From an uncultured Alphaproteobacteria bacterium (GTDB taxonomy: Bacteria > Pseudomonadota > Alphaproteobacteria > HIMB59), in assembly GCA_902595525.1 (NCBI GenBank), contig CACJQJ010000006.1, positions 1 through 35,893 on the forward strand: a stretch of 35,893 nt of DNA. Direction: 5' to 3'. The notes below the pieces were generated by a model. The model had not been told where the DNA came from, did no database searches, and saw only the letters and a program-made list of their open reading frames with translations. Made by a program: the position numbers and the translations under genes. Below, piece by piece: positions 14,035 through 26,930 of the stretch (its first letter is position 1; each line of letters starts with the position of its first letter).

Positions 14035-15153
14035 TTAGTCTAAATTTTTAAAACCGTAACCTGTTTTTTTTACTCTTGTTTTAAAATAATTCTTATTAAA
14101 TTTGTTAATTGTAGGTTTTGTATTTATTTGCTTGGCAATTTTAATACCAGCTTTTTTAAGAGAAGAAACTTTTGTAAAATTATTTGTGATAATATTGACT
14201 TTATTTACTTTTAATAACTTAAGTATCTTAGCGGCAATATTAAAATCTCTTTCATCATCTAAAAAACCTATGTTGTGATCAGCATCAATAGTATCCAAGC
14301 CTTTTGACTGAAGAGAATATGCCCTCATTTTATTGGCTAGTCCTATACCTCTCCCTTCTTGATCTAAATAAAGGATAATACCTCCTTTATTTTTAACCAT
14401 ATAGTTTAAAGAGTTATTTAATTGTTCTCCGCAATCGCATTTTCTAGAGTGAAATATATCCCCAGTAAAACAAGCTGAGTGAATTCTAAGGTTTGTTGGT
14501 TGTTTTAAATTTTTTGGTTTAATTATGATCGCGATATGTCTTCTAGCACCAATATATGACTTAAAAATATTAAAAGTAGTAGATGCAACATTTGGTAAGG
14601 GCACATTTGCACTTGAAACTAATCTGATACTATTAGTTATAAATTTATTCTGATTTTTTAACTCTTTATGGTTAAATCTTAATAGACCAAGTTGTAATAT
14701 TAGATTATCAATATTTTTATAATATTTTGAATTAATTTTTTTAAATATAAGTGACGGTATTACCTTCGCATTTTTGGCAATATCTAAACAGACATTATGG
14801 AAGTCTTTACTTTTGATATAAGGCTCATCTTTAAATAATATTTTATTTTGATCAGATAAAGGGTTAATGAATAAACTTAATAAAGATTTGTTTAATATTT
14901 TTTCATTTATTTTTAAATAAATATTTGTTGATATTTTATTTTCAAATATTGATTTTGCTTTTTGTTTTGTGATTAAAAGATATTTGTCTTTTTGTAGGTA
15001 TTGATTGAATTGATTTAGAATTTTATTGTCCGAATGTTCAATATTAAAGAACATCCAATAATTTTTATTTTCTTTGATAACTATTGGTCTTCCGGTTCTA
15101 AGCTCATTGATAGCTCTATCAATAAATGTGCCAAAATTTGATTTTAAACTCAT
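14035..15153 (-). CDS. ribA: GTP cyclohydrolase II with a degenerate N-terminal domain
   Basis: 372 residues. The C-terminal part (about 175-345) is GTP cyclohydrolase II: zinc ligands Cys228, Cys239 and Cys241 in CFTGDIFHSRKCDCGEQL, the LDQEGRGIGLANKMRAYSLQ active-site stretch, and LDTIDADHNIGFLDDERDF. It converts GTP to the 2,5-diamino-ribosylaminopyrimidinone phosphate, formate and pyrophosphate. The first 170 residues occupy the place of a DHBP synthase domain and begin with the similar FIDRAINELRTGRPIVI, but the acidic DHBPS catalytic loop (DDExRENEGD) is absent, so no DHBPS activity is expected. It is divergent from the RibD-type reductase with 41 bases between. It may be the housekeeping RibA, the first enzyme of the adjacent cluster, or both. 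Confidence 0.9.
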   Translation of the reverse strand: MSLKSNFGTFIDRAINELRTGRPIVIKENKNYWMFFNIEHSDNKILNQFNQYLQKDKYLLITKQKAKSIFENKISTNIYLKINEKILNKSLLSLFINPLSDQNKILFKDEPYIKSKDFHNVCLDIAKNAKVIPSLIFKKINSKYYKNIDNLILQLGLLRFNHKELKNQNKFITNSIRLVSSANVPLPNVASTTFNIFKSYIGARRHIAIIIKPKNLKQPTNLRIHSACFTGDIFHSRKCDCGEQLNNSLNYMVKNKGGIILYLDQEGRGIGLANKMRAYSLQSKGLDTIDADHNIGFLDDERDFNIAAKILKLLKVNKVNIITNNFTKVSSLKKAGIKIAKQINTKPTINKFNKNYFKTRVKKTGYGFKNLD

Positions 15154-15194
15154 AGACTATATATATACTCAATAGTACTTGATACAGATGAAAA

Positions 15195-16025
15195 ATGATA
15201 ACAAAGCATAATATTTCTTCACTATTTGAATTTGTAAAAAAACAAAAAAAATCAAATATCTTAAGAATTGATTTAATTAACAAATCGTTTGTACTTAGTC
15301 AACATTCTAAAACTAATCATATTTTAATTGACAAAAATGGCGTTAATTTTAATTGTAAGATTGAAAAAAAAATAAATGAAATATCACAAATTTTATTACC
15401 AATATTGATGATAAAAAAAAAATTTTATATCGGTCAAATTGGGCAAAGCTTAGACGGTAAAATTGCACTTTTAAACGGCAATTCTCATTACATTAATGAT
15501 AAAAATAGTATTTCATACCTTCATAGTCTACGTTCAGTGTGTGATGCAGTTATAGTTGGTGTAAATACAATAAAAAAAGATAATCCCTTACTCACTACAA
15601 GAGCAATTAAGGGCTCAAATCCTCAGAGGATAATTATAGATCCGTCTCTAAAATTAACAAATAACTATCAAATATTTAAAGATGGTTTTTCAAATATCAT
15701 ATTTACACACTCTAATATTAAAAAGAATTTAAATAATACACAAATTTATAAATTACCTGAAAGAAATTTCACAAATCTTATATACAAACATATAAATAAA
15801 TTAGGTTTTAAGTTCGTGTTAGTAGAAGGTGGTTCTAAAACTATATCTAAATTTCTTGAGAATAAATTATTAGATATTATGCAATTTATAATAGCACCTA
15901 CAATTATTGGTTCTGGTATAAATTCTATAAATATAAAACCTATAACAAATTTAAAAAAAGTTATTAGAACAAAAAATAAAATTTATAAATTTGGTGAAGA
16001 AATGATAGTAAGTTTAGAGTTTTAA
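15195..16025 (+). CDS. RibD C-terminal-type pyrimidine reductase
   Basis: 276 residues. Residues about 76-276 are a RibD_C/DHFR-like NADPH reductase: IGQSLDGKIA (82-91), LHSLRSVCDAVIVGVNTIKKDNPLLTT (split here only by naming; about 109-135), PQRIIIDP, and VEGGSKTISKFL near 210. The family reduces the ribosyl side chain of the GTP cyclohydrolase II product after deamination. The first ~70 residues are not the cytidine-deaminase domain of bifunctional RibD: no HAE or PCxxxGxT zinc motif is visible. It is divergent from ribA and overlaps the convergent methyltransferase gene by 12 bases. The start is ATG 15195; a nearby ATG at 15188 is out of frame. Confidence 0.85.
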   Translation: MITKHNISSLFEFVKKQKKSNILRIDLINKSFVLSQHSKTNHILIDKNGVNFNCKIEKKINEISQILLPILMIKKKFYIGQIGQSLDGKIALLNGNSHYINDKNSISYLHSLRSVCDAVIVGVNTIKKDNPLLTTRAIKGSNPQRIIIDPSLKLTNNYQIFKDGFSNIIFTHSNIKKNLNNTQIYKLPERNFTNLIYKHINKLGFKFVLVEGGSKTISKFLENKLLDIMQFIIAPTIIGSGINSINIKPITNLKKVIRTKNKIYKFGEEMIVSLEF

Positions 16026-16802
16026 AGCTAAAAAATCTTTATTTCTTAGAAATAATTTTGATTTATTTTTTTTAATATTTTCCCTTCTAAAATCTAACCA
16101 TCTATCTAATGATATCTTATTTTTTTCAAGTACATTTTCACAAAAATCTATAAACATATTTTGAAATTTTTTATTATTTGATACATCCCAACTCGAGTCA
16201 AAAACAAATGTTTTGTGTGACTTAGAAAATAATTTATTAATTATTTGACTACAGTTTTTACCAACTGCTTTTTGCCCAATACCTTTATCTGACTCCTGAT
16301 CTTTATTAAATAGATTTAAAACGTATTGATCATCTTTATGTTTTGGGTGAAATTTAAAAAATCCATCATAATTAATCGAAAAATATATAACTTTTGTATT
16401 TAGATTTTGTTTTTTAAATCCTAAATACCAATTTTTTGGCATTATATCTAAATACGCAGATCCTGTAATAATATCGTATTTTTCGAATTTAAAACTTTTT
16501 ATATTTTTGATTAAATCAAATTTTTTATAATTTATATTTATAATTTTATTCTTATTATTTGTTTTTTTCTTAAATTCTTTTATTGACTCAAATGATATGT
16601 CTATCATATCCCATGATTGCCTTTTTTTAAGTTTAGGGTACAGATATCTATAGTTGGAACCTGTTCCACAACCTAAATCAGCGATAGACAATATTTTGTA
16701 GTCTTGAAAATATTTATTAATTTTTTCTATGATTTTTTTATTTCTTGAAACTTTATCAATTTTCTCTCGAAGAAATAGCCAATCATTATTAAATTTATGC
16801 AT
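16014..16802 (-). CDS. Class I SAM-dependent methyltransferase
   Basis: 262 residues. SAM-binding motif I is ADLGCGTGSNYRYL (41-54), followed by an acidic DMIDIS strand-2 end, a KFDLIKN motif II area and the YDIITGSAYLDIMP strand 4. There is no signal or membrane segment. The substrate is unknown. It is the last gene of the minus-strand operon: its ATG overlaps the glycosyltransferase stop by 8 bases. Next to a glycosyltransferase, a PTPS-like protein and two riboflavin-type enzymes, it is likely to decorate a small molecule, but that is inference. Confidence 0.8.
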   Translation of the reverse strand: MHKFNNDWLFLREKIDKVSRNKKIIEKINKYFQDYKILSIADLGCGTGSNYRYLYPKLKKRQSWDMIDISFESIKEFKKKTNNKNKIININYKKFDLIKNIKSFKFEKYDIITGSAYLDIMPKNWYLGFKKQNLNTKVIYFSINYDGFFKFHPKHKDDQYVLNLFNKDQESDKGIGQKAVGKNCSQIINKLFSKSHKTFVFDSSWDVSNNKKFQNMFIDFCENVLEKNKISLDRWLDFRRENIKKNKSKLFLRNKDFLALKL

Positions 16803-17838
16803 CTTTTATTATCTTGATAAAAAGATCTCCAGATTGTATTGGTGTTAAAAATTTTCTTTTATTTTGTAATAATTTTTTTGATAAATCTGAATTAAATGCA
16901 TTTTTAGTAATTAATTTTGATAAACTTTTTTCTTTGAAATTATTTAAGTAGATAATTCCATCCCTTTTAAGAGTATTCATAATTGTTTTAGTTTTATATG
17001 TAATAATCATTTTTTTGAGTTGAAGGGCATTAGCAAGTGACATACCAAAACCTTCATATTTACTTACTGAGACATAGAAGTCACTCTTAGAATATAGTTT
17101 TGATAATAAATTAGTCGATACATTACTATAAAACTTAACTTTATTACTTAATCTATAATTACTTATAATTTTTAGTAATCTATTATAGTATTTACTCTCT
17201 CTAGTTATATCTCCTACAATATTTAATTTTATTTTATCCATGTATCTTAATTCGTTTAACAGATAATGATAATTTTTTCTCTCAATAATACTTCCTACAG
17301 ATAGTAAATTTATATTTTTATCTTTTTTTAATTTATATTTTTTCAATTTTTCTATTCCAGGTTCTACAACTAGAATTTTTCGCTTATTAATTTTAAATTT
17401 TTCAAAAATTAGTTGTTTCGTATCATTTGAAGTGACAATTATTTTTTTCGTTTTCTTATATAATTTTTTAGCGTTCTTAAGAAAAAATTGACTTTTATTA
17501 CCACTAAATTCTAGATAAAGAGGGTGGTGTATAAGAGCTATTACTACAAATCTATCTAAATAGTTTATTATACTATCAATACACTCATAAACTAATCCAT
17601 CAAAAATTAGTACTGAATTATCAGGTAACTTTTCTAAAGCTTTTTTTAGATTTTTTAAGTCATTTTCTTTAGGAAAGGGAAAGCTATCTGCTAGTTTGAT
17701 AGTATTTAAATTAAATTTAATTTTTTTAGCTCTTTTTAATATATTTTTTTCATAAATGTAACCACCTGTTTTTGTATTAATATCACCTGGATAAATAAAA
17801 TAATAAGATTTATTGTGTATTACTGATCTCTTGTTCAT
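16795..17838 (-). CDS. GT4-family glycosyltransferase
   Basis: 347 residues with a GT-B fold of family 4. The N-lobe has a Gly-rich start (NTKTGGYIYE, 21-30) and FDGLVYE; the C-lobe has LLSVGSIIERKNYHYLLNEL (178-197), the usual donor-domain beginning, and the donor-site SKYEGFGMSLANAL (259-272). The EX7E signature is partial: Glu262 is present, but the second position (270) is Asn. No membrane segment. The start overlaps the PTPS-like stop by 29 bases, a tight coupling. The acceptor is unknown; the surrounding genes suggest a soluble pterin- or pyrimidine-type molecule rather than a cell-surface polymer, and no other polysaccharide genes are nearby. Confidence 0.83.
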   Translation of the reverse strand: MNKRSVIHNKSYYFIYPGDINTKTGGYIYEKNILKRAKKIKFNLNTIKLADSFPFPKENDLKNLKKALEKLPDNSVLIFDGLVYECIDSIINYLDRFVVIALIHHPLYLEFSGNKSQFFLKNAKKLYKKTKKIIVTSNDTKQLIFEKFKINKRKILVVEPGIEKLKKYKLKKDKNINLLSVGSIIERKNYHYLLNELRYMDKIKLNIVGDITRESKYYNRLLKIISNYRLSNKVKFYSNVSTNLLSKLYSKSDFYVSVSKYEGFGMSLANALQLKKMIITYKTKTIMNTLKRDGIIYLNNFKEKSLSKLITKNAFNSDLSKKLLQNKRKFLTPIQSGDLFIKIIKDA

Positions 17839-18217
17839 AAGAAGCCCAAGCTACATTTGACTCAGTTAAAATAATTTTAATTTTATGCAACTTGTTAAAA
17901 TCTTCTATGTAATCTTTTTGTAATTTATCGCATATTCTATCAAAAATATCTTTAGCAAGAAATTCCGTAGAGGTAATTATATTTTTAAATTCTTCAACTT
18001 CGTCTAAATTTTTATAACTATAAAATTTTAACACGTCAGAGAGAATTTCTGTTACAACCCCGAGATCCATAATAATGTTATATTTGTTAATGTCTTTTGC
18101 ATAAAACTCAGCATCAACTATGTAGGTCGCTCCATGCATATTCTGTGCTGGTCCAAAAACCTCACCTGGGAGAGAATGTGCAATTAAAATATTATTTCGA
18201 ACAGTAATTGAATACAT
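17810..18217 (-). CDS. PTPS/QueD-like protein with altered zinc site
   Basis: 135 residues, the size of 6-pyruvoyl-tetrahydropterin synthase / 6-carboxytetrahydropterin synthase. The fold markers are HSLPGEVFGPAQNMHGATY (14-32), IIMDLGVVTEIL (48-59, family D-F/L-G), STEFLAKDIFDRI (83-95) and TESNVAWASYE (118-128) with the pterin-binding Glu119. In usual members the zinc is held by three histidines, His plus HGH; here His14 and His28 remain but the third position is Ala30 (MHGATY). No Cys is in the usual catalytic position. It therefore probably does not do standard QueD or PTPS chemistry. It lies between the dehydrogenase and the glycosyltransferase in one operon. Confidence 0.82.
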   Translation of the reverse strand: MYSITVRNNILIAHSLPGEVFGPAQNMHGATYIVDAEFYAKDINKYNIIMDLGVVTEILSDVLKFYSYKNLDEVEEFKNIITSTEFLAKDIFDRICDKLQKDYIEDFNKLHKIKIILTESNVAWASYEQEISNTQ

Positions 18218-18218
18218 T

Positions 18219-19181
18219 TTAATACTTTATAGCATGCATTATGCTTTCTGGATTATTTAATATTGAAATATAATCTTTCTCTAGGTCCTTAAATTCACTC
18301 TCAGTGTTTATTAATTTAAGAAGGTGGTTATTAGATAAAGCATTTATAGCTAAATTCAGTCTCTTTTTATAATCATATTTTTTTGATAAATATTTTGGAA
18401 TATTTGAAACTTGAGAGCCAATAATTTTTAATCTCTTTGAGTGAAAATTGCCTCCTAAATCTATATGACCTTTTCTATTTCCATACCAACTAGCCTCAAT
18501 AAATTTTCCTTCTAAATTTAATTTTTTTAGTGATTGGTTTAATACATCGTAATTAGATGTTGTATTAATTATAACATCTAAGTCTTTAATTTTTTTAAAA
18601 TTAATAAATTTTAGTCCTAAAATATTAGCAAATTTCTTCTTTTTAATATTTATGTCAGTAATAAAGACATTTTTAAATTTTAGTAATTTATAATAGTAGG
18701 CAGTTAAAATACCAACAGAGCCCATCCCTGTTATCAATATTTTGTTATTTAATTTTGCTTGAGCGTCCCAAAAGATATTAATAGCTGTTTCCATATTTGC
18801 TGTTAGTAAATATTTTCGAATATCACCATTACCTTTTAAAATGTTCACATTATTTATATTAATCTTAAATAGTGACTGATGAGGGTAAAGGCAGAATGTA
18901 TTTTTATTTAAATATTTTTTTGGGCCTTCAACTATTTTACCAACATTAATATAACCGTATTTTATTGGAAAAGAAAAAGATCCCTCTTGAAAAGGAGATT
19001 TCATTATATCAAACTGATCTTTGCTAATATTACCAGATGCTACTAATCTCTCAGTACCCTTACTAATTCCTGAATAAAGAGTTTTTACAAGAACAGTTTT
19101 AGAATTTTTTTTATAGCTTAGTATTTTTTTCTTAATAATTGGTTTATTTTTATTCTTAAGCCATAGAGAATAAGTTTCCAT
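18219..19181 (-). CDS. BchC-like medium-chain dehydrogenase lacking zinc ligands
   Basis: About 320 residues of the MDR alcohol dehydrogenase superfamily. From the chosen start: SGISKGTERLV (37-47), FPIKYGYINVGKIVEG (71-86), CLYPHQSLF, a TANMETAINIFWDA stretch, the Rossmann loop GMGSVG (152-157) and ASWYGNRKGHIDLGGNFHSK. The catalytic-zinc Cys of ordinary members is Ser here, and the GHE motif is replaced by YGY; the structural four-Cys lobe is missing (one Cys in that region). It resembles bacteriochlorophyllide dehydrogenase BchC and related pathway enzymes, so it likely oxidises or reduces a bulky small molecule without zinc. The frame is open to ATG 19208, but METYSLW from 19181 fits the family start and leaves 29 bases to the divergent hydrolase. 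It is the first gene of the minus-strand operon. Confidence 0.82.
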   Translation of the reverse strand: METYSLWLKNKNKPIIKKKILSYKKNSKTVLVKTLYSGISKGTERLVASGNISKDQFDIMKSPFQEGSFSFPIKYGYINVGKIVEGPKKYLNKNTFCLYPHQSLFKININNVNILKGNGDIRKYLLTANMETAINIFWDAQAKLNNKILITGMGSVGILTAYYYKLLKFKNVFITDINIKKKKFANILGLKFINFKKIKDLDVIINTTSNYDVLNQSLKKLNLEGKFIEASWYGNRKGHIDLGGNFHSKRLKIIGSQVSNIPKYLSKKYDYKKRLNLAINALSNNHLLKLINTESEFKDLEKDYISILNNPESIMHAIKY

Positions 19182-19210
19182 AATAATTATATAAATGTTA
19201 AATATCACTT

Positions 19211-19969
19211 ATGCTATCAAAGTTTTGGTCCGATTTGACATCAGTAGAGATAAGTAAATTAGGTAAAAATAAGATACTTATTCTCCCATTTTCATCTGTA
19301 GAACAACATGGAGAACACCTTCCATCAGGTACTGATAAATTGATATTAGATGGTATTGTAAATACTTTTATTAATAAATATCCCAAACTTAATAAATATT
19401 TAATTCTACCAAATATCTCAATAGGTTCAGCGAGTGAGCATAATAGCTTTGAGGGCACTCTATCTTCGAACTCTACAAATTATATTGATTATATTATCAG
19501 CATAGTTGGTGGGTTATGTATTCGTAGATATAAAAAATTTATCTTTTTAAATAGTCATGGCGGACAAATTAGTCACTTAGATATAGCTGCTAAAGAAATT
19601 AAAAGTAGATATAAAGCTGTCGATATTGTTAAGGCACATTATTTTTTATTTAAAGGTTTTGAAAAAATTATTCCAAAAAAGGAATTACTTTATGGATATC
19701 ATGGAGGTGAATTTGAAACATCAATAATGCTCCACCTCTATCCAGAATTGATAAAATTAAATAAAATTAAAAGAAACAAACTCTCAACTGACTTTAAATC
19801 TAAAAAAATAATTTCTTATGAAAGAACAATTAAAAGAGCTTGGAATACAAAAGATTTGTCCAAAACAGGTATCATAGGCAATCCTACAAAATCCTCTGCA
19901 GATAAAGGAAAAAGAATTCTAGATCTTACATCAATAAACTTAAAAAAAATAATTGATGAAATGAAGTAA
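19211..19969 (+). CDS. Creatininase-family metal amidohydrolase (ArfB/MftE-type family)
   Basis: 252 residues. The metal site of the creatininase family is visible: VEQHGEHLPSGTD (Glu31, His33, Asp42), NSHGGQ (His116) and the later HGGEFETS (Glu167). Known members are creatininase, the archaeal FAPy deformylase ArfB of riboflavin/F420 synthesis, MftE of mycofactocin synthesis, and an inosose hydrolase, so the reaction is hydrolysis of an amide or similar bond in a small molecule. An ArfB-like role is attractive because GTP cyclohydrolase II and a RibD-type reductase are neighbours, but family membership alone cannot decide. It is divergent from the dehydrogenase; its stop abuts the tRNA-Cys gene on the other strand. 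Confidence 0.87.
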   Translation: MLSKFWSDLTSVEISKLGKNKILILPFSSVEQHGEHLPSGTDKLILDGIVNTFINKYPKLNKYLILPNISIGSASEHNSFEGTLSSNSTNYIDYIISIVGGLCIRRYKKFIFLNSHGGQISHLDIAAKEIKSRYKAVDIVKAHYFLFKGFEKIIPKKELLYGYHGGEFETSIMLHLYPELIKLNKIKRNKLSTDFKSKKIISYERTIKRAWNTKDLSKTGIIGNPTKSSADKGKRILDLTSINLKKIIDEMK

Positions 19970-20109: not shown

Positions 20110-21126
20110 ATGAAACTGGATAAATTTAAAAAATACCCATTAACCTTTGGTGTTACACCAATTGAGTTTTTACCCAGACTTTCAAAACATATTGATAAAG
20201 ATATCGAAATTTATGCAAAAAGAGATGATTGTAATTCAGGCTTGGCCTTTGGTGGTAATAAGTTGAGAAAACTAGAGTACATAATACCAGATGCTATTGC
20301 ATCGGGCGCAGATACTTTAGTCTCAATTGGTGGAGTACAATCAAACCATACTAGAATGGTAGCTGCTGTTGCAGCTAAGATTGGGATGAAATGTAGATTA
20401 GTTCAAGAAAAATGGGTTCCGCACCACGACTCTGTTTACGATAGAGTTGGCAATATTTTATTAACAAAATTAATGGGTGCTGACAGCCGTCTAGTTGAAG
20501 ATGGCTTTGATATAGGAATTCGAAAAAGTTGGGAAGATGCAATTGAGTCTGTAAAAAAAGAGGGAGGTATCCCTTATGGTATCCCAGCAGGTGCTTCTGT
20601 TCATAAATATGGTGGTCTTGGTTATGTTGGATTTGCTGAGGAGGTAAGACAGCAAGAGAAAGATCTTGGTTTTAAATTTGATTATATAATTGTATGTGTT
20701 GTTACTGGATCCACACAAGGAGGCATGGTTGTTGGATTTGCAGAGGATAACAGAGCTGATAAAGTAATCGGTATAGATGCTTCTGGTACATTAGAACAGA
20801 CTAAGAAACAGGTCCAAGCTATTGTTTCTAATACAGCAAAGTTAGTTGAATTAGGAAGAGAGATTAAAAATGATGAAATTATTATCAATCCTAACTATGC
20901 TTATCCAGCTTATGGCGTCCCAAGTGAGGAAACAAATGAAGCTATAAGATTATCTGCAAGGTTAGAGGGTATGATAACTGATCCAGTTTATGAGGGAAAA
21001 TCTATGCAAGGCCTTCTAGATCTTGCTAAAAATGATTTTTTTCCAAAAGGATCTAAAATTTTATATGCACATTTGGGAGGAGCTCCTGCGATTAATGGCT
21101 ATAGTTATTACTACCGTAATGGATGA
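20110..21126 (+). CDS. acdS: 1-aminocyclopropane-1-carboxylate (ACC) deaminase
   Basis: 338 residues, the exact length of Pseudomonas AcdS, and alignable without gaps from memory. This PLP enzyme breaks ACC to 2-oxobutanoate and ammonia. The residues that separate true ACC deaminases from D-cysteine desulfhydrase relatives are all present: PLP lysine Lys51 ([12 protein letters not shown]), Ser78 (GGVQSNHTR), Tyr294 and Glu295 ([11 protein letters not shown]) and Leu322 (AHLGGAP). A -10-like TATAAT is at 20080-20085 in the gap after tRNA-Cys, but I see no good -35. The PuuA-like gene follows after 20 bases, so the two are probably co-transcribed. In a likely marine organism ACC could serve as a nitrogen source from algae or be a stand-in for another amino acid. 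Confidence 0.93.
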
Positions 21127-21146: not shown

Positions 21147-22538
21147 ATGAAAAAAATTTTAGCTAAAAATTTAACTGAGGCAAAATCTTTTCTTAAAAAA
21201 AACCCTAAAATAAAATCCATTGATATTGTATTCCATGATGTAAATGGAGTGGGTAGGGGAAAAATAATTAGAAGACACGAACTTTTAAATCTCTATGAGT
21301 CAGGAAGACAGTTTCCTCTTTCTGTGCTTGGGATGGATATTACTGGAGAAGATGTTCCTGATACTGGATTAATTTTAGAGCAGGGAGATGGCGATATAAA
21401 AGCTTGGCCAATAGTTTCATCTTTAAAATCTATTTATAATAGCAACCCTCCAAGAGGTGAACTTTTTATGACAATGTCAGATATTGAGGGAAATAAACTT
21501 AATATCGATCCTAGAAATGTTTTAGAGTCTTTAATTAATCAATATGAAAAAGAAGGAATTAAGTTATTTGGAGTATTTGAATTAGAGTTTTTTCTTGTTT
21601 CAAATAACTTAGATCAATATGGCAAACTTCAACCAGCAAAATCAATTATTGGAAAAAAAAGAACACATAGAAAAACTGATGTTTATTCAGTGGACAAACT
21701 TCATGAAATGATCCCTTTATTTAATGATATTTATGAGGCAGCTAAAGTTGCTGGATTAGATGTAGAGACTGTTATCTCAGAGTATGCACCCGGTCAATTT
21801 GAATTAACATTGAAACATCAGAGTAATCTTTTGAAATCAGCGGATGATATAATACGACTTAAAAGAATAGTTAGGGCTCAATCGAGATCTCATGGAATTA
21901 CAGCTTGTTTCATGGCTAAACCAATGGAGAACGTATCTGGCTCCGGCATGCATTTTCATATCTCAATGTATGACAAAAAAGGTATTAATTTATTTTCAGA
22001 AAATAATAAAGGTAAAATTAACCCAAATCTTTTAAATGCAATTGGTGGTTTATCTCAAACAATGGGTGAAAGTATGTTGGTTTTTGCTCCACATGCGAAT
22101 AGTTGGAGAAGACTTGTTTTAGGATCATATGCTCCTGTGAGACCAAATTGGGGTTTAGATAATAGATCAGTAGCTTTTAGAATTCCAAGTAGCTCTAACA
22201 AGAATAGAAGAATAGAACACCGTGTTTCAGGTGTAGACGCAAATCCCTATCTAGTAGCTTTGACTGTCTTGTCGGCTATACGTTATGGAATGAAAAATAA
22301 AATTAAACCCCCAGAGCAAACTAAAGGAAATGCTTACAAACAAAAACAAAATTCAAACATAAAAATGCCTCATGATTGGAGTTCTGCTATTATTTTTGCA
22401 AAAAAATCAAAATTTTTAAAAGAAACATTAGGACAAGATCTACATAAGGCCTTTATCGCTATTAAAGAAATGGAATATCAAAAAGTAGCAAGTACAGTCT
22501 CAGAGTTAGATATTGATTTGTATTTAAATGCTATTTGA
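21147..22538 (+). CDS. Glutamine synthetase-like gamma-glutamyl ligase (PuuA-like)
   Basis: 463 residues of the glutamine synthetase superfamily, class I-like fold but the PuuA/GMAS-type branch. N-terminal beta-grasp HDVNGVGRGKII (27-38) and SVLGMDITGE; catalytic domain with FELEFFLV metal glutamate, EYAPGQFELTL, ATP/Glu site ENVSGSGMHFHIS, then WGLDNRSVAFRIP and RIEHRVSGVDANPYL. PuuA joins glutamate to putrescine; relatives act on methylamine, ethanolamine or other amines. The product would be a gamma-glutamyl amine used for nitrogen. There is no adenylylation tyrosine loop of GlnA that I can identify. It is 20 bases after acdS, and its end overlaps the convergent PanB-like gene by 8 bases. 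The amine substrate is unknown. Confidence 0.88.
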   Translation: MKKILAKNLTEAKSFLKKNPKIKSIDIVFHDVNGVGRGKIIRRHELLNLYESGRQFPLSVLGMDITGEDVPDTGLILEQGDGDIKAWPIVSSLKSIYNSNPPRGELFMTMSDIEGNKLNIDPRNVLESLINQYEKEGIKLFGVFELEFFLVSNNLDQYGKLQPAKSIIGKKRTHRKTDVYSVDKLHEMIPLFNDIYEAAKVAGLDVETVISEYAPGQFELTLKHQSNLLKSADDIIRLKRIVRAQSRSHGITACFMAKPMENVSGSGMHFHISMYDKKGINLFSENNKGKINPNLLNAIGGLSQTMGESMLVFAPHANSWRRLVLGSYAPVRPNWGLDNRSVAFRIPSSSNKNRRIEHRVSGVDANPYLVALTVLSAIRYGMKNKIKPPEQTKGNAYKQKQNSNIKMPHDWSSAIIFAKKSKFLKETLGQDLHKAFIAIKEMEYQKVASTVSELDIDLYLNAI

Positions 22539-23316
22539 TTTTACTTTGGAATTTTTCAAATTCAGATAAATCCATTTTTATAAGATGTTTGTCCTCAGGA
22601 TAGTTACCACTTTTAATATCTTCTAAAAACATTTTAAATCCTTTTTCTCGTAATTGTTGTAATTTTTCTTCTTCTTTTTTTATATCTACATACTTCTTAG
22701 CATGCCTCGGGTAATGACCTGAATTAATACCTAATATATCATTGCAAAATAAATATTGAGTATCACAAACATCTCCACAACCCATACCCATTGTGATCAT
22801 CTTTGTATTTTTAGTAATAAAATCAGCCAGTTCAACAGGCACAACTTCAACTTCAACACAGGCTGCTCCAGCGTTTTCTAAATCTTTGACATTTTGATAA
22901 ACTTTTATTGCTTCCTCTGCTGTTTTTCCTACAGCGCGAAAGTTTGTCCAGGTAGCTCTATTTGGGACTAACCCAACATGAGCTGTAACAGGTATCCCTT
23001 CTTTTGCCATTCCTTCTATCCAATCAATGGAATGTGAACAATAAACAGCATCACCACCCATATCTAAGATTTCAAAACCTTTTTTAATGGCTTCTTTTTT
23101 GGAACTGACTGTTCCATGTTTTAAACCTACCGAGAGAAAAGCATTTGGGGCAACTTCTCTAACTTTTTTGAAATAATTATCTGGTTCACAAGATATGATT
23201 TCTATACCAGATTTATATGCTGCCTCTGCTTCTTTATCTGTATCGATATGAGTTTGTGCCCATTTTTTTTTTCCTTTTTGGCTCCAAAGGTCATAGACAC
23301 TTGGTCTATTACGCAT
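22531..23316 (-). CDS. PanB-like (ketopantoate hydroxymethyltransferase family) protein, atypical
   Basis: 261 residues. The second half follows PanB: TAHVGLVPNRATW (family GHIGLTPQ), VGKTAEEAIKVY, DLENAGAACVEVEVVPVELA (family LExAGxxxxVLExVP), MGMGCGDVCDTQYLFCNDIL (family IGIGAGxxxDGQVLVxxDxL) and a closing HAKKYVD. The first half is unlike PanB: the usual TAYD and VGDSLGMV metal/substrate segments are not visible, and the protein begins about 20 residues short. So the TIM barrel of the PanB/PEP-mutase group is kept but the aldol partner is probably different. The ATG overlaps the desaturase stop by 8 bases, so these two work in one operon. I would not call it panB. Confidence 0.7.
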   Translation of the reverse strand: MRNRPSVYDLWSQKGKKKWAQTHIDTDKEAEAAYKSGIEIISCEPDNYFKKVREVAPNAFLSVGLKHGTVSSKKEAIKKGFEILDMGGDAVYCSHSIDWIEGMAKEGIPVTAHVGLVPNRATWTNFRAVGKTAEEAIKVYQNVKDLENAGAACVEVEVVPVELADFITKNTKMITMGMGCGDVCDTQYLFCNDILGINSGHYPRHAKKYVDIKKEEEKLQQLREKGFKMFLEDIKSGNYPEDKHLIKMDLSEFEKFQSKIK

Positions 23317-24301
23317 TTTGATTATTCGGAACAGCTACATTTAATTCGTAAGATGGATCTTTTGCCTGTTTAAATATAGTAGGTATTATTTCAGAATACG
23401 CACCCAAGAGACCTTTCTTAGCCGGTGGCATCTGATCTTTAACTAATTGGTGCAGTTTAGGCAAGTTATGCGAAGGCACAGTAGGGAACATATGGTGTTC
23501 AATATGATATTCCATCTGCCAATATAAAAAACTGAAGATCGGGTTTAAATGCATTGTTCTAGTACTATATCTGTGATCTTTAATATTATCTTTTAACCCA
23601 GTGTGTTGAGTTAATCCAAAAAGTCTTTTGAGTGTTATCCCATAAAAGTTTGGAAGTAAAAAATATAAAACCGGTAACCAAGACTGAAAAGCAATTGATA
23701 TAGTTATTAATAAGATCCAAATACCAACGTGTAATCTTGAAGAGTTTATACATTTTTGATGTTCTCTCTCAGGAATTACTTGTTTCATCACTTCTGTTTT
23801 TTTGCCTAAAGCATGAAGAATTGTTTCGTATTGAGTTGTTTTTTTAAAATTAATTATGTCAAAGAAAGGTATGAATAAACTGAAAAAGTAAAAAACATCA
23901 GTTGGTCTTCTAATTGCTATTTCAAAATCAAGAGGATCATCGAAGTAAGTATAACCATGATGACGGAAATGAGACCATCTCCATCTTACTGGTTCAAATC
24001 CATTCATATAACTACCAATTTGATAAAAAAAGTTATTCCAATAGTTCGTTTTAAAAGCTGTTTTATGTCCAGTTTCGTGCCAAATAGGATCTGCGCAATT
24101 CCATATATTTCCATAAATTAAAAAAAATAATAAAGACCACCAAGTCCCCCATGTCATATAAGCTAAAACACCAAATACAATTAAAGACCCAAAGAAAATA
24201 AACATATGTTTAAAACCTTGATAATCAGACTTCTTAAGAAGCTTTACAAATTCTTCCTTATCAACGTCACAATGATGCCATTTGTCTAAGTCAACTTTCA
24301 T
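23309..24301 (-). CDS. Membrane fatty-acid-desaturase-family oxygenase (MocD-like)
   Basis: 330 residues, several membrane helices (about 33-65, 190-222 and others) and the three histidine boxes of di-iron membrane desaturases/hydroxylases: HETGH (75-79), HFRHH (111-115) and HIEHH (266-270), plus a QHTG near 232. The NPIFSFLYWQMEYHIEHHMF stretch and the following VPSHNLPKLHQ fit the branch that includes rhizopine catabolism protein MocD and alkane-type monooxygenases, so the substrate need not be a fatty acid. It leads a two-gene minus-strand operon with the PanB-like gene. The upstream gap to the 4-helix membrane gene is 40 bases on the same strand. Confidence 0.85.
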   Translation of the reverse strand: MKVDLDKWHHCDVDKEEFVKLLKKSDYQGFKHMFIFFGSLIVFGVLAYMTWGTWWSLLFFLIYGNIWNCADPIWHETGHKTAFKTNYWNNFFYQIGSYMNGFEPVRWRWSHFRHHGYTYFDDPLDFEIAIRRPTDVFYFFSLFIPFFDIINFKKTTQYETILHALGKKTEVMKQVIPEREHQKCINSSRLHVGIWILLITISIAFQSWLPVLYFLLPNFYGITLKRLFGLTQHTGLKDNIKDHRYSTRTMHLNPIFSFLYWQMEYHIEHHMFPTVPSHNLPKLHQLVKDQMPPAKKGLLGAYSEIIPTIFKQAKDPSYELNVAVPNNQNA

Positions 24302-24814: not shown

Positions 24815-25786
24815 TTGATTAAAAAAAAGATTGTCACAATAGTTGGTGCTGGCGTCATTGGCGCTGGATGGGCTGCTAGAATGCTAGCATGTGGTCTAAT
24901 TGTTAATGCTTATGACCCAAGTGTTAAGGCAAGAAAGCAACTATTATTAAACACTAAAACAGCTTTAAAGAGCCTTCAAAGATTAGGTTTAAATAAAAAT
25001 ACAAAACTTTGTAATTTGAAAATTTATTCTGATCTCAGAGGGTCTCTTCATTCAACCACCTTTGTCCAAGAAAATGCTCCAGAGAATGAAAAGTTAAAGA
25101 AGAAACTTCTCAAAGATATAGATAAATTATTACCAAAAAATATAATCATTGCGTCAAGTTCATCAGGACTTTTACCTACAAGAATTCAATCTTTATGTAA
25201 TTATCCAGAAAGAGTTTGTATAGGACATCCATTTAACCCTGTATATTTATTACCTCTTGTTGAGTTGGTATCAGGAAAACAAACAAAGAAAAACACAATA
25301 ACTAGAGCTAAGAAGTTTTACGAAGAAATAGGAATGAAGCCTTTGATTGTAAAAAAAGAAATTGAGGGCTATATATCTGATCGCTTACAGGAGGCTCTTT
25401 GGAGGGAGGCTCTTCACATAATTAAAGATGGCATAGCTTCAACTCAAGATGTTGACGATGCAATTGTTTATGGACCAGGATTAAGATGGTCTTTTATGGG
25501 TGTTTGTCTAACTTTTCATTTGGCAGGAGGGCAAACTGGTATGAAACACATGTTAGAGCAGTTCGGACCTGCTCTTAAGTTACCTTGGACTAAACTAAAG
25601 GCTCCAAAACTAGATGCAAAACTAAAAAAATTAATGATTTCAGGAACAAAAAAACAGGCAGGAAAATATAGTATTAAAGATCTAGAAGTGCAAAGAGATA
25701 TTTTTTTGATTGAAATCATGAAAACTTTGAATAAATATCAAAGAAATAATTTTCCTAATTGGAATAAAAAATTTAATAAATTTTAA
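24815..25786 (+). CDS. lcdH: L-carnitine 3-dehydrogenase
   Basis: 323 residues of the 3-hydroxyacyl-CoA dehydrogenase family. NAD loop GAGVIGAGWAARML (11-24), VQENAPEN (family: substrate-side motif), SSSSGLLPTR, catalytic histidine in GHPFNPVYLLPLVE, and the C-terminal HLAGGQTGMKHMLEQFGPAL typical of carnitine dehydrogenases. It oxidises L-carnitine to 3-dehydrocarnitine. The start is TTG 24815; no ATG or GTG is in a suitable place, and the Rossmann strand begins immediately after. One base separates its stop from the next ATG, so it is in one operon with the gamma-butyrobetaine hydroxylase. The usual next enzymes (3-dehydrocarnitine cleavage enzyme and betainyl-CoA thioesterase) are not in the window. 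Confidence 0.9.
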   Translation: MIKKKIVTIVGAGVIGAGWAARMLACGLIVNAYDPSVKARKQLLLNTKTALKSLQRLGLNKNTKLCNLKIYSDLRGSLHSTTFVQENAPENEKLKKKLLKDIDKLLPKNIIIASSSSGLLPTRIQSLCNYPERVCIGHPFNPVYLLPLVELVSGKQTKKNTITRAKKFYEEIGMKPLIVKKEIEGYISDRLQEALWREALHIIKDGIASTQDVDDAIVYGPGLRWSFMGVCLTFHLAGGQTGMKHMLEQFGPALKLPWTKLKAPKLDAKLKKLMISGTKKQAGKYSIKDLEVQRDIFLIEIMKTLNKYQRNNFPNWNKKFNKF

Positions 25787-25787
25787 T

Positions 25788-26930
25788 ATGAGCGAAAATC
25801 TATCAATTAAAACAATCGATAAAAATAAAAAGTCTATTTTAGTTGATTGGAGTGATGGTTTTAAAAGTAAATACAATTTCCTATGGTTGAGAGATAATTG
25901 TCCCTCTGAAGTACATCCAACAGCTCGTGAGAGAACTTTTAATCTGCTTACTGTATCTGAAGATATTCATCCTAAAAATTACTCTCTAAATAGTGAAGGT
26001 AATCTTGAGATTGAATGGAGTGAGGGAGGGCATAAAAGTGTTTATGAGAAAGATTGGTTGAGACATAATTGTTATTCTTTAAAACACACACGAGAGTACG
26101 TTTCACCATATAAGATTTGGGATAAATCCATGCAAGATACGTTTTCAGATATTCAAATAGATTACAGCGAAATAATTAGTGGTGATGACGGTTTAAAAAA
26201 GTGGTTACAGCAGCTACATTATTTTGGTATTTCAATTGTTAAAAACGCTCCAACAGATGTAAATTCTGGTTTTGATATCCTTAAAAACATAAGTCACACT
26301 CGAGAAACTTTTTTCAAAACACCATTCGAAGTTATTGATATACCTAATCCTAACAATTCAGCTTATACTGCAGCAGGTTTAAGAAATCATATTGATTTAC
26401 CATATTATGAGATAGCTCCTGGATACCAGTTCCTACATTGCTTGATAAATAATGCTACCGGGGGTGAGTCAGTAGCTTTAGATGGTTTTAAGGTAATTGA
26501 TTATTTAAAAAATAATTACCCAAGTGACTATGAAGTATTACTTAATACCTCTGTAAAATTTGTAAATAGGGACTACACAACTAATACAATTAGAGTTATG
26601 CATAAACCCATAATTACTCTCGATCACAACAATGATTATAATGATATTAGGTTCAGTGTTGCCTACATGGGAGTAATGGACTGCCATCCTGATAAAATGG
26701 ATCAATTTTACTCTGCATACAGAAATCTATTTAGCCTTCTACATGATGAGAGGTTTGAAATAAATTTTCGTATGCAAGCCGGAGATATTTTTAGCTTTAA
26801 TAACCGTAGAGTTTTACATGGTAGAAAAGAGTATGATGCCAATTCTGGAGAAAGACATCTCCAAGGATACTATATGGACAGAGATGAAATCGTAGGTCGT
26901 TTAAATTTTATTGAAAATATTAACCCTTGA
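25788..26930 (+). CDS. Gamma-butyrobetaine hydroxylase-like 2-oxoglutarate dioxygenase
   Basis: 380 residues. A DUF971-type N-terminal domain (NFLWLRDNCPSEVHP, Cys38 and His43) precedes a TauD/BBOX double-stranded beta-helix with iron ligands His201 and Asp203 (NHIDLPYYE) and His344 (RRVLHGRKEYD). It would make L-carnitine from gamma-butyrobetaine using 2-oxoglutarate and oxygen. The N-terminal zinc site known from human BBOX (three Cys and one His) is only partly kept: the CPC motif reads CPS. Together with the preceding carnitine dehydrogenase it forms a gamma-butyrobetaine to 3-dehydrocarnitine route, which supports the substrate call over trimethyllysine dioxygenase. Confidence 0.85.
   Translation: MSENLSIKTIDKNKKSILVDWSDGFKSKYNFLWLRDNCPSEVHPTARERTFNLLTVSEDIHPKNYSLNSEGNLEIEWSEGGHKSVYEKDWLRHNCYSLKHTREYVSPYKIWDKSMQDTFSDIQIDYSEIISGDDGLKKWLQQLHYFGISIVKNAPTDVNSGFDILKNISHTRETFFKTPFEVIDIPNPNNSAYTAAGLRNHIDLPYYEIAPGYQFLHCLINNATGGESVALDGFKVIDYLKNNYPSDYEVLLNTSVKFVNRDYTTNTIRVMHKPIITLDHNNDYNDIRFSVAYMGVMDCHPDKMDQFYSAYRNLFSLLHDERFEINFRMQAGDIFSFNNRRVLHGRKEYDANSGERHLQGYYMDRDEIVGRLNFIENINP

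Follow-up and report, generated by a model that had tools for sequence, protein, structure and literature searches.

A conserved seven-gene cluster in an uncultured alphaproteobacterium and its relatives: a candidate pathway from GTP to a pterin-type glycoside

Several described systems lead from GTP to pterins, pyrimidines or flavins. Pathways of the cyanopterin and limipterin type start from GTP cyclohydrolase I and a working 6-pyruvoyltetrahydropterin synthase (PTPS), vicine is a glycoside of a GTP-derived pyrimidine, and ArfC is the ribose reductase at the archaeal start of riboflavin and F420 synthesis. GTP is opened by GTP cyclohydrolase II (GCH II) or, in the same step, by the unrelated GTP cyclohydrolase IIa. 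In Streptomyces coelicolor, the PTPS-fold protein SCO6650 is reported to have no zinc and no PTPS activity and to retain a pterin pocket, and SCO6655 reportedly gives a formylated product. BrbF, a creatininase relative of Sinorhizobium meliloti, deformylates just such a formylated GTP-derived intermediate, and formamidase activity has been shown for the S. meliloti and Brucella abortus proteins (PMC9478397); a pteridine glycosyltransferase of Chlorobium has been published (PMC5683033), and the COG0720 subfamilies PTPS-I, PTPS-II and PTPS-III are distinguished by motifs in their HGH region (PMC5041015). Here, we describe seven adjacent genes that combine families from these systems, located at positions 14035-19969 of the window, by which we mean the whole analysed stretch of 35,893 nucleotides (contig CACJQJ010000006.1, assembly GCA_902595525.1) from an uncultured alphaproteobacterium whose order is taken to be SAR11. 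The gene set is one conserved unit, more than chance would bring together, and we propose, with moderate confidence, that it makes a GTP-derived pterin-type glycoside. A search of one open-licence library, which lacks most subscription papers, found no paper that assigns a product to such a module, in agreement with the initial annotation. The genes are as follows.

14035-15153, minus strand: RibA, GTP cyclohydrolase II (Pfam PF00925, E 9e-48), with the catalytic domain C-terminal at about residues 182-343
15195-16025, plus strand: RibD_C reductase without deaminase (PF01872 alone, E 8e-29), with an N-terminal extension of about 76 residues
16014-16802, minus strand: class I S-adenosylmethionine (SAM)-dependent methyltransferase (PF13649, E 1.5e-7)
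16795-17838, minus strand: GT4 glycosyltransferase (PF00534, E 9e-22)
17810-18217, minus strand: SCO6650-type protein with the PTPS fold and without its catalytic residues (PF01242, E 1e-20)
18219-19181, minus strand: BchC-like dehydrogenase of the medium-chain dehydrogenase/reductase (MDR) type, 320 residues from the likelier ATG (open reading frame to 19208)
19211-19969, plus strand: creatininase-family amidohydrolase, candidate formamidase with a BrbF/ArfB-like role (PF02633, E 6e-52)

Open reading frame calls and Pfam searches confirm the seven adjacent genes and the families first assigned to them; all are intact and none is broken. Within the minus-strand operon the methyltransferase and GT4 genes overlap by 8 bp and the GT4 and PTPS-like genes by 29 bp, and the PTPS-like and BchC-like genes lie 1 bp apart. 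The BchC-like gene probably starts at the ATG at 19181 rather than at 19208, because its full-length relatives mostly have 319-320 residues. The cluster is flanked by a CMD-family gene on one side and a tRNA-Cys gene on the other, and its bins have a GC content of 0.22-0.27, compared with 0.24-0.35 in most other bins of the window.

That the genes form one unit is indicated by their distribution. Among 289 alphaproteobacterial genomes drawn evenly, 37 matched the BchC-like protein, and one weak match over 66 residues (G257) was set aside. A second search, of 289 genomes of the class under the same identifiers, with a PTPS-like profile gave strong matches (>150 bits) in 36, and these are the identical 36 genomes; 25 further genomes had weak PTPS-like matches only (<40 bits). 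Stretches of up to 18 kb around the 36 drawn loci, with presence scored at >60 bits, held the PTPS-like gene in 35, GT4 in 33, the methyltransferase in 31, RibD_C in 28, RibA in 13 and creatininase in 7. In 25 of the 36 the five-gene core was together, and in four all seven genes were, three of these loci being from the window's order; outside this order the methyltransferase family was kept in 28 of 33 drawn loci. A draw of 398 genomes across the whole phylum gave 27 matches to the BchC-like profile. The set of named loci consists of the best 80 of at least 590 and is hence biased to similarity; 18 were counted as SAR11-type, judged partly on 61-97% identity, and 62 were not. Fifteen of the 18 have all seven genes; in the other three the sequence is short and stops within the cluster or shortly beyond it. 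Among the 62, PTPS-like was found in 58, the methyltransferase in 57, GT4 in 53, RibD_C in 49, RibA in 29 and creatininase in 18, with the five-gene core in 46 and all seven genes in 11, namely records of Halomonas, Vreelandella and Halovibrio and one Wenzhouxiangellaceae bin. Pairwise distances of the BchC-like, PTPS-like, GT4, methyltransferase and RibD_C proteins correlate with r of 0.71-0.88, a correlation that is partly due to common descent, and 200 label shuffles gave at most 0.32. Sixteen near-identical SAR11 loci had been removed before this comparison, as also before the recurring-neighbour counts, the motif alignment and the 96-member residue counts given below.

The expectation that similar sets occur in other alphaproteobacteria was thus borne out, and a neighbourhood search found the genes together far beyond this class. 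Complete or partial versions of the module occur in SAR11, Rhizobium relatives, Rhodobacteraceae, Halomonas relatives, Gemmatimonadota bins, actinomycetes and Haloarcula. Several of the genes were found in Rhizobium, Neorhizobium, Roseovarius, Paracoccus, Vreelandella, Marinobacter, a Xanthomonas sp. and Streptomonospora, and in metagenome bins of Gemmatimonadota and Acidobacteria; in Aureimonas only the BchC-like, PTPS-like and methyltransferase genes were seen, and in the Thiocapsa stretch just the BchC-like gene. In Streptomyces fungicidicus, PTPS-like, BchC-like, GT4, methyltransferase, creatininase and GCH II genes are together. The BchC-like protein is encoded on 18 plasmid records, including those of Streptomyces, Microbacterium, Arthrobacter and two Haloarcula. 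Within the window's order it matched 102 of 162 genomes, 101 of them strongly and all in two of the seven genera; the single weak match is probably another dehydrogenase, and in two further genomes without a match a contig ends inside the cluster. An empty insertion site could not be demonstrated: the flanking 1-aminocyclopropane-1-carboxylate (ACC) deaminase gene finds only weak and remote matches in four relatives and no match in G162.

The PTPS-like protein reaches 74 bits against PF01242 (cut-off 22.4), fails the QueD equivalog TIGR03367 (39.5 bits, cut-off 89.25), and, as a profile of 20 rows that include a Streptomyces member, matches PDB 3d7j, the SCO6650 structure named 'uncharacterized', with E 1.5e-62 and 212.9 bits. 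Alignment to PDB chains including 2g64, 1b66 and human-type ones revealed the loss of catalytic residues: in all 96 members compared, Ala stands in place of Cys and HGH has become HGA, and the Asp-His pair is found in none. The other two zinc His residues are kept in 96 of 96, as is a C-terminal Glu, which we take to be the residue that binds the pterin ring in PTPS enzymes. Having lost its catalytic Cys, a zinc His and the Asp-His pair, the protein is, to judge by its residues, not a PTPS or QueD enzyme, so that the initial annotation needs amending on this point. The same loss contradicts the annotation of PTPS-like proteins in the plasmid clusters as 6-carboxytetrahydropterin synthase. On two Haloarcula plasmids (L177, L205) the PTPS-like gene lies beside a GTP cyclohydrolase IIa gene, and that of H. 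halophila reads HSHH where the bacterial family has HGAT; the Haloarcula protein may represent a step between true PTPS and the SCO6650-type family.

The opening of GTP appears to belong to the pathway as well. RibA of the window has the zinc motif HSACFTGDIFHSRKCDC and Tyr279, and keeps Cys228, Cys239, Cys241 and QEGRGIGL; no 3,4-dihydroxy-2-butanone 4-phosphate (DHBP) synthase domain was found in it by Pfam. It scores under the NCBIfam equivalog TIGR00505 (183.5, cut-off 205.85) and passes the broader subfamily NF001591 (217, cut-off 148). Pfam gave no match for its N-terminal domain (residues 1-170), which the aligned proteobacterial RibA proteins share and the 219-residue RibA of S. fungicidicus lacks. 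Both Haloarcula halophila and H. pelagica carry genes for a CDP-alcohol phosphatidyltransferase, GTP cyclohydrolase IIa and the BchC-like, PTPS-like and methyltransferase proteins in a row, and the cyclohydrolase of H. halophila passes NF002587 (315.7, cut-off 306). Since both Haloarcula records swap GCH II for the unrelated GCH IIa, there is good evidence from gene content that GTP opening, as first proposed for RibA, is part of the pathway.

The RibD_C domain scores 101 bits over a cut-off of 24.1, no deaminase domain was found in the protein by Pfam, and its PDB relatives are RibD and DARP reductases; an assignment to the fungal/archaeal or the bacterial type was dropped, the PDB scores being too close. 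The BchC-like protein is far below the BchC equivalog TIGR01202 (50.4, cut-off 291 bits), and its model resembles polyol dehydrogenases among other MDR enzymes. The best PDB relative of GT4 is 6kih (Tll1590), followed by the D-inositol 3-phosphate glycosyltransferase 7qsg and, lower, by PimB 3okc and PimA 2gej; relatives of the MshA, PimA and PimB types glycosylate inositol phosphate or phosphatidylinositol. The creatininase domain reaches 177 bits over 31.3, and Glu31, His33, Asp42 and His116, presumably its metal ligands, are invariant in 28 cluster members. In the few relatives tested, creatininase goes with the cluster: one copy each was found in G001, G260 and G162, and none in G031, the only cluster-free genome tested. 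Tyr is found in 44/45 or more of the cluster RibA proteins compared (98%), but S. fungicidicus, where the creatininase gene lies beside RibA, has Met at that place. This change of Tyr to Met reportedly leads to a formylated product in S. coelicolor SCO6655, and it is from this intermediate that BrbF removes the formyl group (PMC9478397), which speaks for the proposed pathway.

Taken together, the reading that we favour, at somewhat better than even confidence, is that of a dedicated biosynthetic module, spread between lineages, which makes a GTP-derived pterin-type glycoside by way of RibA, RibD_C, the PTPS-fold protein, the BchC-like dehydrogenase, GT4 and the methyltransferase. RibA would open GTP to 2,5-diamino-6-ribosylamino-4(3H)-pyrimidinone 5'-phosphate (DARoPP), and the creatininase-family protein would take off the formyl group where a cyclohydrolase leaves it on. 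RibD_C would then turn ribose into a ribityl chain without prior deamination, leaving the 2-amino group on the ring, and the PTPS-fold protein, with its ring-binding Glu and no PTPS chemistry, would shape a pterin-type or open aminopyrimidine core together with the BchC homologue, after which GT4 would glycosylate it and the SAM enzyme would methylate it. We infer each of these reactions, their order and the product, and likewise the glycosylation and methylation of a GTP-derived compound. A product that keeps the 2-amino group is likelier than a flavin because the cluster has no deaminase and the Glu assumed to bind pterin is invariant; of the 'pterin- or flavin-type' molecule first suggested, the pterin or aminopyrimidine half is therefore preferred. 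As a whole, the initial interpretation held in its proposal of one conserved uncharacterised pathway with GTP opening, and needs revision as to the PTPS/QueD enzyme, the type of product and the riboflavin role of RibA discussed below. In the roseobacter-type clusters L209, L208 and L098, inositol monophosphatase or ribokinase/PfkB genes lie nearby, which possibly handle the phosphate of the ribityl chain.

Outside SAR11 the module often has additional company. Of the 33 drawn stretches 12 carry a CDP-alcohol phosphatidyltransferase gene, as do 38 of the 62 named ones; of 35 checked, 34 retain what we take to be its catalytic motif. Both sets repeatedly contain FkbM, sulfatase-type, MdoH-like GT2 and cytochrome b561 genes (cytochrome b561 near 7 of the 33 drawn loci and 14 of the 62 named ones), and the named set alone also has MdoG and LPG-synthase-TM genes. 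Because LPG-synthase-TM was found in 34 of 62 named loci and in none of the 33 drawn ones, its link to the module depends on lineage or sampling. One or more of the seven extra types accompany 23 of the 33 drawn loci and 52 of the 62 named ones; as the named loci were also the source of the envelope profiles, the counts in that set arise partly by construction. A look at 22 SAR11-type cluster stretches, several of which are shortened by contig ends, found none of these genes. G001 has three PF01066 genes elsewhere in the genome, the weakest of 205 residues and 36 bits, and the cluster-side PF01066 genes of G230, G187 and G237, within about 7 kb, score 49-63 bits; the weakest G001 gene was judged, by size and score only, to be a different gene from the cluster phosphatidyltransferase. 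Because many non-SAR11 clusters add this phosphatidyltransferase and envelope genes, the end product may there be joined to a lipid or glycan, and the SAR11 cluster, which carries none of them, would probably end at a soluble glycoside.

A number of observations weigh against this pathway. The BchC-like and PTPS-like genes are on separate contigs in G036, the BchC-like gene is alone in L108, L139 and L146, and a Rhodobacteraceae stretch (SC52) is without GT4. RibA and creatininase were found in only 10 and 4 of the 33 drawn loci outside the window's order, so that either may be dispensable or provided from another locus; the distances of RibA correlate less with those of the four operon genes (r 0.54-0.60) than with those of RibD_C (0.86). 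The Haloarcula PTPS-like proteins are distant (45-48 bits) and without the GPAQxxHGAT motif, and no RibD_C match was found in the Haloarcula cluster or in the S. fungicidicus stretch. Since the window RibA keeps the Tyr which we expect to remove the formyl group itself, its creatininase would be left without an obvious job.

A further caveat concerns riboflavin. Eight genomes of the window's genus, 69-99% complete so that a second RibA may be missed in some, have two GCH II matches each. One is a housekeeping RibBA, present in all eight, which retains its DHBP synthase motif and has lost the zinc motif of GCH II (L181, L182, L193-L198). The intact GCH II is the cluster RibA in G001, G260, G779 and G808, and a stand-alone RibA in G031, G765, G771 and G770, around which (L199, L200, L201, L204) no other window gene matched. 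As no other intact GCH II was seen in the four genomes that carry the cluster RibA, this enzyme probably serves riboflavin synthesis too and has both jobs. Genus g150 has a separate 198-residue RibA besides the cluster one, for example in G162. G001 and G260 have another RibD_C gene besides that of the cluster; in G001 a full RibD was read, and RibD, RibE, RibBA and RibH form a separate row, with names given partly by eye. The possibility that the RibA and RibD-like genes are the only riboflavin enzymes, raised with the first description, applies in part, to RibA in four genomes of the genus and not to the RibD_C of G001 and G260. In G162 (96% complete) the cluster RibD_C is the only RibD_C domain found.

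Among the alternatives, an open aminopyrimidine glycoside resembling vicine, with no pterin closure and a PTPS-like protein that only binds or positions the pyrimidine, is unlikely but survives best. It fits the loss of the PTPS catalytic residues, and in faba bean the synthesis of vicine begins with VC1, a bifunctional riboflavin protein (PMC12202586). However, a ring-binding T-fold enzyme and a polyol-type dehydrogenase were always paired in the draw, which fits the building of a ring at least equally well.

It is rather unlikely that the operon of BchC-like, PTPS-like, GT4 and methyltransferase genes acts on an unrelated envelope substrate, with RibA and RibD_C as riboflavin paralogues parked beside it. 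The scarcity of RibA in the drawn loci, its divergence less in step with the operon and its role as sole intact GCH II would agree with this, as would the CDP-alcohol phosphatidyltransferase, MdoH/MdoG, sulfatase-type and LPG-synthase-TM genes near many loci. Against it, outside SAR11 RibD_C accompanies 25 of the 33 drawn loci and 49 of the 62 named ones, and the lack of another copy does not explain its presence, since each of the 12 tested genomes with such loci had two or more RibD_C domains; moreover, the two haloarchaea place GCH IIa inside the operon.

A bolder form of the favoured pathway, which we regard as quite doubtful, is a GTP-derived ribityl-pterin. RibD_C would reduce the ribose, the BchC-like enzyme would re-oxidise the 2'-hydroxyl and the PTPS-fold protein would close the dihydropterin ring, bypassing the Amadori step of GTP cyclohydrolase I; oxidation of the ribityl 2'-hydroxyl beside a free 5-amino group would, we infer, allow this closure. 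Many hosts would then glycosylate and methylate the polyol end and join it to lipid via the CDP-alcohol phosphatidyltransferase, giving a pterin-headed membrane lipid, perhaps redox-active or light-absorbing, and SAR11 would keep a soluble form.

Glycosylation of a conventional tetrahydropterin from GTP cyclohydrolase I, with RibA and RibD_C as accessory proteins, is improbable: the combination of PTPS fold, glycosyltransferase and methyltransferase is reminiscent of pterin glycosides of the cyanopterin type, but the PTPS-like protein is without the Cys, the third zinc His and the Asp-His pair, and GCH II or IIa was found in three of the five annotated plasmid clusters first read and GCH I in none, in gene tables that are incomplete. 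A flavin or lumazine derivative, for example a flavin glycoside, is the least probable of all: RibA and RibD_C are riboflavin-pathway families, but the cluster RibD has no deaminase domain, Pfam showed no lumazine or riboflavin synthase among the 10 recurring neighbour proteins submitted to it, and G001 has its separate riboflavin row. Of the other genes of a riboflavin operon, RibB, the RibD deaminase, RibH and RibE are all lacking among the seven (Pfam).

Elsewhere in the window, an ACC deaminase gene at 20110-21126 (TIGR01274, 550 bits, cut-off 392) adjoins the tRNA-Cys gene. Glutamine synthetase-like, PanB-like and membrane desaturase/hydroxylase-like genes follow in a row at 21147-24301, none reaching its NCBIfam cut-off, and could constitute another pathway without assigned role. 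At 24815-26930, neighbouring carnitine dehydrogenase-like and gamma-butyrobetaine dioxygenase-like genes, both under their equivalog cut-offs, point to a possible use of trimethylammonium compounds.

The module is found in many soil, marine and halophilic microbes, so that a compound as yet unnamed may be common in nature; should the module make one compound, this is probably widespread in the surface ocean. The solved structure 3d7j would moreover gain a pathway, as would a distinct subfamily of COG0720, with which the window protein shares Pfam family and fold; unlike PTPS-I, PTPS-II and PTPS-III, the family has the motif HGA in all 96 members. Among the closest described systems is the locus of SCO6650 and SCO6655 in S. 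coelicolor, with a PTPS-like protein of the 3d7j family and a GCH II paralogue; in the open-licence literature these gene names matched only a paper on a metabolic model. Compared with the Streptomyces-type locus, the proteobacterial clusters usually add RibD_C, and their RibA has Tyr where S. fungicidicus has Met. With cyanopterin- and limipterin-type systems (PgtA, Chlorobium PGT) the cluster has a PTPS fold and a glycosyltransferase in common at the level of gene families, but GCH II and a PTPS fold without catalytic residues are found here. We know of no PTPS-like, BchC-like or RibD_C module in the vicine and convicine pathway. That faba bean pathway is a plant system, which has in common with ours the riboflavin-type protein at its start (PMC12202586). 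The opening of GTP, the creatininase-type formamidase and the deaminase-less ribose reductase would match BrbF of S. meliloti (PMC9478397) and archaeal ArfA, ArfB and ArfC; in contrast to those systems, PTPS-like, BchC-like, GT4 and methyltransferase genes follow here, and no deaminase, lumazine synthase or F420 gene is among the seven.

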